64,000 nucleotides of DNA from Alphaproteobacteria bacterium (lineage in GTDB: Bacteria; Pseudomonadota; Alphaproteobacteria; CAAHEQ01; UBA3637): NCBI GenBank assembly GCA_017962565.1, contig JAGCVC010000020.1, forward strand, positions 1 through 64,000, in the 5' to 3' direction. This document shows, piece by piece, positions 17,277 to 20,413 of this stretch (position 1 is its first letter; every line of letters starts with the position of its first letter). A program made the translations under genes and the position numbers. A model generated the notes under the pieces. That model worked only from the letters and a program-made list of their open reading frames with translations. It made no database searches and was not told the origin of the DNA.

Positions 17277-17280
17277 ATAG

Positions 17281-17314
17281 AAAAAAGAGTCATTATTTCA
17301 ATGGCTCTTTTTTT
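17281..17314 (+). terminator. Terminator after tRNA-Asn
   Basis: AAAAAAGAGTCATT and AATGGCTCTTTTTTT pair with a short loop and end in seven T. Confidence 0.75.
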
Positions 17315-17368: not shown

Positions 17369-17396
17369 TTGCAACTAAAAACGAGCATGTTATAAT
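17369..17396 (+). promoter_or_regulatory. Promoter of the cysteine-rich pilin-like gene
   Basis: TTGCAA, 16-nt spacer and a perfect TATAAT about 37 nt before the ATG. Confidence 0.6.
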
Positions 17397-17432
17397 CGAA
17401 AAAAATGTATTTCAAAATGCTGAGGAAAAAAC

Positions 17433-20369
17433 ATGAAAAAACTCTTACATAAACTTGAACAATGTCTTACTTTTGAAAGAAATACTTCTGGTTTTCTTAA
17501 AAAATCACGCGGTCGGACGATGTTGGAAACCTTAGCCGTATTGGCGGTATTGGGTTTGCTAACCATAGGCAGTATAAAAGGCTTGAATGCTGTATTTATG
17601 AAATCGAGAATAAACAAAATTTTGGATGATGCTGCTAAAACCTATACAATTTTATCCGTATCTAAAAAATTTCATGAAAATTGGGTACTCACTTTGCCTG
17701 CAGACAAATCCCAAAGTGGCTTTGACTTTTCCGGCAAACAGGCTATAAAAGAAGTAAATGATGAGACGAATGGTCCTATTATGACTTATGTCCGCGTCAA
17801 TCTTCCGAAAGACTTCTGTACAGCTGTCCTTGAAGAGCAAGCAGAAGGATTTTCAATTCATAAAGCAAGTGCTTCGGGTGAGATTTCAACCTATTCCTTA
17901 ACAGAGTGTGAAGATGAAAATGATGTGGTCTTTATTTTCAATATGGCACGTTCTTGTGCTTCAGACAGACAATGTCTAGACAAATACGGAAAAGGTTATA
18001 TCTGTATAAACGGATCTTGCATCAGAAGAGAATGTGAAGATGATTATGATTGCAAAAGTGGTGAAACTTGTGTTGCAGGCATGTGTAAATCGGAAGCGGG
18101 TTGCACGTATGATGATCAATGTGCTGCGGGTCACATTTGTGTAGAAGGTATTTGTATAAAGGCCTGTGAAAGTAATAACGATTGTCCGGAAGGCCAGAAA
18201 TGCATTACTGGAGAAGGCATTTGTTCTTCTGCTTGTAGTTTTGATACAGACTGTCCGGATGGATATAAATGTTCTTACGGAAATTGCATTACAGATGTTG
18301 AATATAACAAATGTCGAAATAGTGCTGATTGTCCAAACGGAAAATATTGTTTTAATTCCGCTTGTATGACTTGCGGAACCGATAGATATTGGAATTCAGT
18401 GCAACAAAATTGTTTGGATTGTCCATCTGATGCAACGTGTAATGGCGCGGACGGAACATGTAAAAATGGTTACACAGGACACTATAAATCTGATGGAACT
18501 TTAGCTTGTTGCTCAAATGACCTTCATTGGAATGGCTCTGAATGTGGGAATTGCCCAACTGGTGCGATATGTAACGGGACAGAAAAAATAACTTGCCCCA
18601 ACGGGGAATATGATCCTATTTTGTCACGTTGTCAAAATTATGCTTGTCACAACTGGGACACTGTTTTGAATTGCTGTTTAGATGATGGACGTTGTACTTG
18701 CAGAAGTTGTTGCTCACATTGGAATAGCGAGTTTAAATGTTGTATGGACAGTGGTTGCAACACTGGTGAAGAAGCGTGCGAAAACGGATATGTATCACAT
18801 GGTGGATATCGTGGAACCATTCGTTGTTGTCACCCAACAAGGGAATATTGGAACGGCGATAATTGTTCGGCATGTCCTGCGGGATGTACATGTGACGGAA
18901 CGACAAGCAGCTGTTTTGATAGCTCCTGTCCGGGAGGCTCTGATTGGAATGGCGCACAGACAGTTTGTTGTCAAACAGGTGAGGTATTGCTAGAGGCGGG
19001 TACTAGAGGTGATCACATCTGTTGTCCTGAAGGAACTCCTTATGCAATAGACAAAACAGGATATAATACTTCTATTCCACAACATCAAGATTATACTTGT
19101 GCAGATGTCTGCCAAGCGGGTACGTACGTAAATGGTAAACAATGTTCAACCTGTCCTGCTGGAACTTATAGTTCTGCTGCTTCAACAAGTTGCACAACCT
19201 GTCCTGCAGGAACTTACAGTGCCGCCGGTTCAGAAAGTTGTACACAATGTCCAGCTGGAACTTACAGCACTGCCGGTTCAGAAAGTTGTACAGAGTGTCC
19301 TGAAGGAACTTATAGCTCTGCAGGTTCAGAAAGTTGTACAGAGTGTCCTGAAGGAACCTACTACAGCGCCACCAGTTCAACTAAATGCAAACCTTGCCCC
19401 AATTATGCTTCGTGCTCTGATGGCAATATAGTTTGCAATGACGGCTATACATTAAGTGGAGGAACTTGTTTGTGTTTAAGTCGCAGTTGTTGCAGTAACT
19501 GGAATTCCGAATTCAACTGCTGTAAGGACACCGGTTGTACATCAGTAGAGACGTGTGCTCCAGGATATGTAGCACATGGAGGACAACGTGGTGTTGTTCG
19601 TTGTTGCAATGAGGAAACGCAATATTGGAATGGCGATAATTGTTCTGACTGTCCAGAAGGATGTACATGTGACGGAACGACAAGCAGCTGTTTTGATAGT
19701 TCCTGTCCGGGAGGCTCTCGTTGGAATGGAATACAGTATGTTTGTTGTCAGGCAGGTGAAGTAGTATTACGGGCGGGTACCAGAGCTGATTACATCTGCT
19801 GTCCTGAAGGAACTCCTTATGCGATAGATAAAACTGGATATAATACTTCTATTCCACGACATCAAGATTATATTTGTGCTCCTTGTAGCAGCTGCGGAAC
19901 TTGCCCAGAAGGTTATGCCTGTGATGGTTCAAATTTAGTTGGATGTGCAACTAATTACACAGCACACTATGATTCCAAAGGAACTTTACATTGTTGCAGA
20001 AATGATAACTATTGGACGGGTAGCAGTTGTACATCATGCCCGACCGGTGCAACATGTGATGGATCAACCCTAACTAGTTGTGGCCCTGGTAAATATTTAA
20101 CTGCGGACAAAACTTGTAAAAATTGTGATGATCTTTACAGAAGTACCACTGCTACTGATGATGACTGTTTGGTGTGTGCAGATCGTACAGTGGAGTTTGG
20201 TTATTGCGATTGGATATGTCCGTTATCATGGTTCAGAAATGCCAATGGTAACTGTACAAGATGTACTGAATCAAACAAGAAGGAAACATCCAAAACAGAA
20301 TGTGACAAATGTAATTATACCGGAAGTCCGCATGTTCGTACCTATGACGGAACATATTGTAAATACTAA
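17433..20369 (+). CDS. Giant cysteine-rich protein with prepilin-type N-terminus
   Basis: The 978-residue protein begins with a basic leader and a type IV prepilin site: cleavage expected after Gly27, then RTMLE with Glu at +5 (Glu32) and the hydrophobic stretch TLAVLAVLGLLTIGSIKGL. After a ~100-residue pilin-like head comes an almost wholly cysteine-rich region: about six units of the form C..D.DC..G..C..G.C (about 170-312); a 130-residue Cys module (about 423-557); five 16-17-residue units of the type CPAGTYS.AGSESCT.C (about 574-654), like the GCC2/GCC3 or ephrin-receptor-type repeats common in eukaryotic surface proteins; then a second, nearly identical copy of the Cys module (about 684-816) and a further Cys tail. 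It is presumably processed by a prepilin peptidase and displayed or secreted by a type IV pilus or type II-like machine, as an adhesin or extracellular binding protein; that role is inference. No pilus assembly genes lie in the window. Own promoter and terminator. Confidence 0.85.
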   Translation: MKKLLHKLEQCLTFERNTSGFLKKSRGRTMLETLAVLAVLGLLTIGSIKGLNAVFMKSRINKILDDAAKTYTILSVSKKFHENWVLTLPADKSQSGFDFSGKQAIKEVNDETNGPIMTYVRVNLPKDFCTAVLEEQAEGFSIHKASASGEISTYSLTECEDENDVVFIFNMARSCASDRQCLDKYGKGYICINGSCIRRECEDDYDCKSGETCVAGMCKSEAGCTYDDQCAAGHICVEGICIKACESNNDCPEGQKCITGEGICSSACSFDTDCPDGYKCSYGNCITDVEYNKCRNSADCPNGKYCFNSACMTCGTDRYWNSVQQNCLDCPSDATCNGADGTCKNGYTGHYKSDGTLACCSNDLHWNGSECGNCPTGAICNGTEKITCPNGEYDPILSRCQNYACHNWDTVLNCCLDDGRCTCRSCCSHWNSEFKCCMDSGCNTGEEACENGYVSHGGYRGTIRCCHPTREYWNGDNCSACPAGCTCDGTTSSCFDSSCPGGSDWNGAQTVCCQTGEVLLEAGTRGDHICCPEGTPYAIDKTGYNTSIPQHQDYTCADVCQAGTYVNGKQCSTCPAGTYSSAASTSCTTCPAGTYSAAGSESCTQCPAGTYSTAGSESCTECPEGTYSSAGSESCTECPEGTYYSATSSTKCKPCPNYASCSDGNIVCNDGYTLSGGTCLCLSRSCCSNWNSEFNCCKDTGCTSVETCAPGYVAHGGQRGVVRCCNEETQYWNGDNCSDCPEGCTCDGTTSSCFDSSCPGGSRWNGIQYVCCQAGEVVLRAGTRADYICCPEGTPYAIDKTGYNTSIPRHQDYICAPCSSCGTCPEGYACDGSNLVGCATNYTAHYDSKGTLHCCRNDNYWTGSSCTSCPTGATCDGSTLTSCGPGKYLTADKTCKNCDDLYRSTTATDDDCLVCADRTVEFGYCDWICPLSWFRNANGNCTRCTESNKKETSKTECDKCNYTGSPHVRTYDGTYCKY
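18699..19102 (+). repeat. Cysteine module, first copy (duplicated within the gene)
   Basis: This segment recurs at 19482-19880 in the same gene. Blocks such as TGTACATGTGACGGAACGAC are identical in both, and the encoded CTCDGTTSSCFDSSCPGGS and YAIDKTGYNTSIP match exactly, which indicates a recent in-frame duplication or conversion. Confidence 0.8.
19152..19394 (+). repeat. Five tandem 48-51 nt units encoding GCC2/GCC3-like repeats
   Basis: Units begin at 19152, 19200, 19248, 19296 and 19344, each encoding C-P-(A/E)-G-T-Y...C.(E/Q/T)C. Units 3-5 are nearly identical in DNA, so the number of copies could vary by slippage or recombination. Confidence 0.85.
19482..19880 (+). repeat. Cysteine module, second copy
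   Basis: Second copy of the 18699-19102 segment. The two differ at scattered codons (for example NGAQTVCCQ versus NGIQYVCCQ) but keep every cysteine that I compared. Confidence 0.8.
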
Positions 20370-20383
20370 ATGTTTCCGTTAAC

Positions 20384-20413
20384 AAAAAGCCCGTCGTTAT
20401 GGCGGGCTTTTTT
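20384..20413 (+). terminator. Terminator of the cysteine-rich pilin-like gene
   Basis: AAAAAGCCCG...CGGGCTTTTTT, GC-rich stem with a T run, about 15 nt after the stop. Confidence 0.85.

Follow-up and report, generated by a model that had tools for sequence, protein, structure and literature searches.

A putative modular type IVb pilin with a large cysteine-rich ectodomain in a UBA3637 alphaproteobacterium

Modular type IV pilins, in which a prepilin leader and a small pilin module are followed by a bulky non-pilin module at the C-terminal end, are an established kind of protein, and more than 1,200 of them, in 264 architectures, are counted in a recent survey (Raynaud et al. 2021, PMC8179133). 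PilB and PilC of Streptococcus sanguinis, which carry a vWA and a lectin module respectively, act as adhesins, a role that has been proven for PilB (PMC8179133). CofB is a large minor pilin whose extra C-terminal domains are thought to be exposed at the tip, and the most extreme multi-domain case named in the survey is an 860-residue protein with 12 repeats (PMC8179133). Adaptable tips have also been described for the Tad/Kil pili of Myxococcus (KilLMN; PMC12075869).

The gene considered here is an open reading frame of 978 residues in a stretch of 64,000 nucleotides (the window) from an alphaproteobacterium of the UBA3637 lineage, suspected to be gut-associated (assembly GCA_017962565.1, contig JAGCVC010000020.1). 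Its product is probably a minor type IVb pilin of the modular kind, which would be displayed at the pilus tip as an adhesin or ligand-binding stalk. This reading is carried by the prepilin leader, by a pilin module with homologues among the ordinary pilins of the genome and of the clade, by the cysteine-rich ectodomain grafted onto it, by a type IVb machine with its peptidase, and by a set of paralogues. The protein follows the general plan of the surveyed modular pilins (PMC8179133). However, the modular pilins known so far mostly bear a single globular module or a pair of them, whereas here there is a long chain of small receptor-like cysteine units (118 cysteines). Its 978 residues, and the 4,335 of another pilin of the same genome, compare with 860 for the survey's most-domain protein (PMC8179133). 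Moreover, there are many paralogues per small genome, and the pilins of the clade fall under the N_methyl signature on which such surveys rely. As with the Kil tips, one genome encodes several minor-pilin tips that are interchangeable and bear extra domains and predicted disulfides; here, however, the genes are scattered singly and served by a type IVb machine, the Kil tips belonging to Tad pili and lying in gene clusters (PMC12075869).

Pilin module and cysteine-rich ectodomain

The protein is laid out along the window as follows.
17433..20369, forward strand: open reading frame of 978 residues (the modular pilin gene), present exactly as in a preliminary description of this DNA
17433..17513, forward strand: class III (prepilin) leader, residues 1-27, basic and rich in Lys and Arg, ending in Gly27
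17514..17612, forward strand: N-terminal pilin helix alpha1, starting RTMLETLAVLAVLGLLTIGSIKG, with Glu at mature position 5
17514..17948, forward strand: pilin module, residues 28-172 (about 145 residues), with Cys129 and Cys159 as a D-region-like pair (alignment and profile)
17955..18371, forward strand: short cysteine-repeat array, residues 175-313, DUF7107-, EB-, Dickkopf_N- and WAP-like (Pfam, segment scan)
18372..18692, forward strand: cysteine-rich W-N-G..C..CP unit or units, residues 314-420
18693..19109, forward strand: 140-residue cysteine unit, copy A, residues 421-559
19143..19397, forward strand: five 16-residue Ephrin_rec_like (GCC2/GCC3) or TNFR-like units, residues 571-655, with a DNA period of 48 nucleotides
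19473..19883, forward strand: 140-residue cysteine unit, copy B, residues 681-817
19884..20366, forward strand: C-terminal cysteine-rich module, residues 818-978 (similarity to the pilin L093 of a relative)

The assignment to the pilins was examined with a profile of 23 other prepilins of the clade from which the window protein had been removed. Run on the 404 open reading frames of the window, this profile detects the 978-residue frame with E=2.4e-30, the runner-up scoring 0.13, and a profile of the globular part without the helix still detects it (E=1.6e-16). When helix and globular part were each shuffled within themselves, the score was at most 7.6 bits, against 83.9 for the real sequence. 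The cleavage site reads ...FLKKSRG27 followed by RTMLETLAVLAVLGLLTIGSIKG, with Glu at mature +5 and then a hydrophobic helix, and in the 24-row alignment Gly-1, Met+3 and Glu+5 are invariant, while Cys129 and Cys159 align with a cysteine pair retained in most modular relatives. The protein matches the ordinary pilins of its own genome via the leader. The family alignment profile matched eight sequences of the PDB, all of them type IV pilins (best E 0.0041). The prepilin site proposed in the preliminary description, and a pilin-type anchor bearing a very large cysteine-rich domain, are thus borne out. Contrary to what had been supposed, leader and cysteine arrays are not contiguous, the pilin module lying between them. 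The contrast drawn with normal pilins is right as to size, which is far beyond about 150 residues, but modular pilins are already an established kind (PMC8179133).

The protein has 121 cysteines, 120 of which are left after cleavage. The ectodomain proper, which had been put at about 850 residues, is indeed large and cysteine-rich but measures about 804 (residues 175-978). When residues 178-326 were scanned alone, four families passed their Pfam cut-offs: DUF7107 (43.5 bits against 24.6), Dickkopf_N (38.0 against 25), EB (28.5 against 24.3) and WAP (22.9 against 20.8). The Ephrin_rec_like array is flanked by the two copies of the 140-residue unit, which share 76% identity in protein and 80% in DNA, and a stretch of 74 nucleotides related to the DNA of the W-N-G unit reappears at 19943-20016. 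Residues 867-976 share 43% identity with a module that is repeated in L093, a pilin of 718 residues (mature) from another genus.

The GCC2/GCC3 units of the preliminary description are recovered from residues 555-665 scanned alone, where PF07699 (Ephrin_rec_like) scores 70.0 bits against a cut-off of 23.1 and TNFR_c6 passes too, but the full-length Pfam scan of the protein did not report PF07699, and an NCBIfam scan of it gave no match. Against the PDB the same 111-residue segment matches Mst1 of the Chlamydomonas mastigoneme (8tx1, E=1.1e-28) and ELAPOR1 (about 2e-10). A shuffle of the segment with every cysteine held in place matched nothing in the PDB, so that composition alone does not explain these matches. 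The two proteins resemble the pilin in their Ephrin_rec_like array; unlike it they are eukaryotic and have no pilin, and the similarity covers about 90 residues only. The match marks the units as being of the extracellular disulfide type and not as sharing a ligand.

Pilus machinery and related pilins

The genome (1.34 Mb in 21 contigs, about 97% complete) encodes a type IVb pilus machine. Exactly one prepilin peptidase was found. A cluster on contig C8 contains a PilC/GspF-type protein (T2SSF), a PilB/GspE-type ATPase (T2SSE), a PilP-like protein, PAP_PilO, a PilN-family secretin and a TcpQ-domain protein; a second, PilT-like ATPase lies on contig C11 and a PilS-family pilin, over its cut-off, on contig C14. 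Among the type IVb markers, PF06864 (104.7 bits), PF10671 (59.4) and PF08805 (33.9) exceed their cut-offs, and TIGR02520 (274 against 287.65) and TIGR03021 (30.8 against 34.65) fall just under theirs. The type IVb set is thereby represented by a PilN-type secretin, PilO, a TcpQ/PilM-like protein, PilP, a PilQ-type ATPase, a PilR-type membrane protein and a PilS pilin. The preliminary description would have been undermined by a genome without pilus or type II secretion machinery and prepilin peptidase, or by a signal-peptidase I site with no pilin-like relatives; what was found is a peptidase, a type IVb operon that includes secretin and ATPases, and numerous pilin relatives with the same leader. 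A signal-peptidase I protein was accordingly rejected, as was a type II secretion pseudopilin, since the sole secretin matches PilN/MshL models and sits in the type IVb cluster, with no GspD-type secretin or gsp operon. Two ordinary pilins of 134 and 143 residues on contig C1 (L016:9484-10457), beside NrdG/NrdD-like (anaerobic) genes and 3 kb away from the genome's single prepilin peptidase, are likely to be the major pilins.

The preliminary description had advised looking for further genes with the same leader, and many carry it: a pilin alignment search of the genome gave 14 pilin-family matches, with the same leader type in most. Four are large and cysteine-rich, namely the 978-residue protein, one of 1,526 residues (contig C11), one of at least 628 mature residues at the start of contig C6, and one of 4,335 residues on contig C8. 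The last (C8:83185-96189, or L127:1186-14190) is an uninterrupted frame of 13 kb with 463 cysteines, beginning with a leader cleaved between G and RTMLEML and then a pilin module, and may rank with the largest known proteins of the pilin type. A tree of pilin modules places it next to the 978-residue protein (96/78), although, with two long branches, this grouping may be spurious. It holds 13 copies of a domain of about 110 residues with the motif W-W-x-A-x-N-W-C, which also occurs once in the 1,526-residue protein and in seven pilins of relatives. The motif, together with the only two PDB matches of the domain, both C-type lectins and neither significant (E=0.37-0.40), suggests a C-type-lectin fold.

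Four contig ends of the assembly (start of C3, L135; start of C6, L129; start of C19, L004; end of C20, L005) share pilin 5' DNA, RSTLEMLGVLAIGGLL... From the cleavage site onward those of C19 and C20 run for 141 bp without a difference, with different leaders upstream, and those of C3 and C6 overlap by 137 bp. The assembly breaks at repeated pilin carriers, which hints at several genes sharing one carrier or at gene conversion. Elsewhere in the genome, pilin-like bodies (NRHR.NEILDYV...) without a prepilin leader stand behind a SHOCT domain (L130:1478-2308 on contig C20; L133:839-1423 on contig C12). One of these also has a TM2 domain, the pilin body thus being on another membrane anchor.

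Comparable proteins occur in relatives. One (L019:96-1469, genome G003) combines a prepilin leader and Ephrin_rec_like units with a C-terminal Hint/PT-HINT domain, possibly a self-processing domain on a pilin. Another (L096:1038-3749, genome G010), which ends at a contig end, has a prepilin-type leader, cysteine repeats, a vWA domain (DNSGS motif) and Ephrin_rec_like units, and its vWA recalls S. sanguinis PilB. In L093 and L097 pilin leaders carry 594-718 residues of cysteine repeats, and other pilins of the family have lectin-like ends. Genome G003 has 27 pilin-family matches at E<=1e-8, and frames of 300-1,071 residues account for many of them. Outside the family, the pilin family was found in 8 of 113 genomes of the other families of the class, in frames of 67-222 residues and one of 345; the large cysteine-rich form is therefore a feature of one family in this sample. 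One frame of relatives has the cysteine modules and no pilin: L035:97-3213 (G006), of 2,293 residues, which starts ankyrin-like and also has a transmembrane stretch and 10 or more Ephrin_rec_like units.

Transcription unit and neighbouring genes

The flanks of the pilin gene contain the following elements.
17280..17314, forward strand: terminator-like hairpin 3' of the upstream tRNA-Asn gene, parting it from the pilin gene
17369..17396, forward strand: promoter-like TTGCAA-16-TATAAT with TG before the -10 (a consensus match only), 36 nucleotides ahead of the ATG
17422..17426, forward strand: Shine-Dalgarno-like GAGGA 5' of the ATG (from the sequence)
20384..20413, forward strand: intrinsic terminator AAAAGCCCG-TCGTTATGG-CGGGCTTTTTT with a loop of 9 (from the sequence)

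With a promoter-like site and GAGGA of its own, a hairpin upstream and a terminator downstream, the pilin gene appears to form a single-gene transcription unit. The terminator was missed by the automated scan because of its loop of 9. Sites of the TTGCAA/TATAAT type are not more numerous in the region than in shuffles, and the TTGCAA-16-TATAAT arrangement is common to this gene and the gene of the 4,335-residue pilin. The neighbours are two tRNA genes on one side and, on the other, a two-gene pair ending in what we take, from its sequence, to be queA. A PHROGs scan of the N-terminal 200 residues of the pilin gave no match, and no phage origin is therefore indicated.

Pilus incorporation and meaning for the family

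A course of events can be proposed from established type IV pilus biology. The prepilin would be inserted into the inner membrane by its alpha1 helix and cleaved after Gly27 by the prepilin peptidase, and its ectodomain would fold in the periplasm, assisted by DsbA, as a rod of small disulfide-stapled units. The pilin module would then be taken up into the pilus via alpha1, the bulk of the protein placing it at or near the tip, and the ectodomain would leave through the PilN-type secretin as a thin cysteine-stapled rod. At the tip it would serve as an adhesin or ligand-binding stalk toward a host surface or another cell, as one of several interchangeable tips besides the lectin-like, vWA and Hint-bearing versions. 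The machine is of the same type as in the CofB, TcpB and R64 PilV systems (PilN-family secretin, PilO, TcpQ, PilS-like pilin), although the searches made gave no sequence match between the ectodomain and CofB, TcpB or PilV. R64 PilV is a type IVb tip subunit. No shufflon was found here, no systematic search having been made.

Several points weigh against this tip-displayed pilin. It has to be assumed that the secretin lets a folded ectodomain of about 800 residues pass. The 978-residue protein has none of the lectin-like, vWA and Hint modules and offers no ligand-binding site to point to. No modular pilin was found at the matching place between the queA-side genes, either in the genus's other genome or in the further genomes of the family that were examined, and positional orthology was rejected. 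The gene, absent from that locus in the other genome of its genus, is therefore accessory, in a pilin set that turns over. AlphaFold models made without an alignment for residues 28-200 and 420-818 (predicted local distance difference test 48.6 and 48.5) were not of useful confidence, and a helix at 2-43, itself of low confidence, weakly favours a long alpha1 helix only. PF07963 (N_methyl, part of IPR012902) scores 10.9 bits on the protein, below its cut-off of 21.2, and the leader of 27 residues compares with 7-9 in the ordinary pilins of the clade. These two facts would suit an ordinary membrane-anchored cysteine-rich surface protein with a chance hydrophobic N-terminus or signal anchor. However, the clade's ordinary pilins of 130-160 residues miss the same cut-off (16-18 bits), so that the signature is insensitive here, and it is a detection tool and not a biological definition of a pilin. 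Read from the first ATG, the leaders of other modular pilins in the clade reach 55 residues. Since the leave-one-out profile, its helix-free counterpart and the shuffles refute chance resemblance at the sequence level, this explanation is scarcely tenable.

It is also very improbable that the subunit is conductive or collects metal, its cysteine repeats binding metals or carrying electrons in place of forming disulfide-stapled adhesive modules. Such a role could be read into 118 cysteines within about 800 residues, in an organism judged anaerobic in the preliminary description and in whose genome, about 97% complete in 21 contigs, neither DsbB nor VKOR was found, a further point against the proposed pilus tip. 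The strong periplasmic disulfide formation that the description calls for is accordingly only partly accounted for: there are two DsbA-like proteins (L048:1021-1947 on contig C15; L049:973-1746 on contig C18) for about 60 disulfides, but no DsbB or VKOR match by which DsbA would be re-oxidised. Nevertheless, no CXXCH haem motif or ferredoxin pattern was seen in the repeats, segments pass the cut-offs of the extracellular disulfide families Ephrin_rec_like, TNFR_c6, EB, Dickkopf_N and WAP, and binding modules such as vWA ride on the same carrier in relatives. The number of mature cysteines is even in 24 of 28 proteins (p 9e-5, an optimistic value since the proteins are related), which favours disulfides over metal sites. 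A metal-binding or conductive pilin was rejected. A third alternative, unlikely but better placed than either of these, is that the protein is pilin-anchored but never enters a pilus. The pilin helix would then only keep it in the inner membrane, or the pilus machine would release it as a secretion system does, and its ectodomain would be periplasmic or secreted. Protein secretion, besides pilus assembly, is an established activity of type IVb machines. CofB/CofJ are mentioned in PMC8179133. The cysteine modules are also found apart from a pilin, behind an ordinary signal peptide in L034 and in the long frame L035, which has no prepilin leader. CofJ and TcpF are released by type IVb systems; neither is known to have a prepilin leader, which counts against this alternative. 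Moreover, the pilin module itself is kept, with its cysteine pair and Glu5, and not merely a membrane anchor, and dozens of paralogues retain the same carrier.

The modular kind of pilin is already known; the architecture, the size and the clade-wide repertoire appear new. A literature search for cysteine-rich, lectin-bearing or multi-lectin pilins returned nothing beyond the modular-pilin papers, Dataset S1 of PMC8179133 lying outside its coverage. The repertoire has probably been overlooked because the clade's pilins score below the standard signature cut-off. Two questions follow: what size of folded cargo a pilin is able to bring through a type IVb secretin, given that 4,335 residues far exceed a normal pilin of about 150, and how some 60 disulfides are made in a genome with DsbA and no recognised DsbB or VKOR.

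Taking the minor, tip-displayed pilin as the working interpretation, it is conceivable, though at somewhat less than an even chance, that the whole family has come to use its type IVb pilus as a platform to display a sizeable, fast-changing collection of giant cysteine-rich tips, perhaps helped by recombination. The proposal draws on protein lengths that reach 4,335 residues, on the 13 lectin-like domains of one protein and on as many as 27 pilin-family genes per genome of about 1.2 Mb. Moreover, several contig ends have one stretch of pilin 5' DNA in common, with identity over at least 137-141 bp, behind different leaders, which suggests that a common carrier may be joined to different ectodomains. 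The cysteine-rich pilin family probably lets these small-genome bacteria show many different sticky tips, and the clade-wide repertoire points to pili as a main device of theirs for adhesion and recognition.

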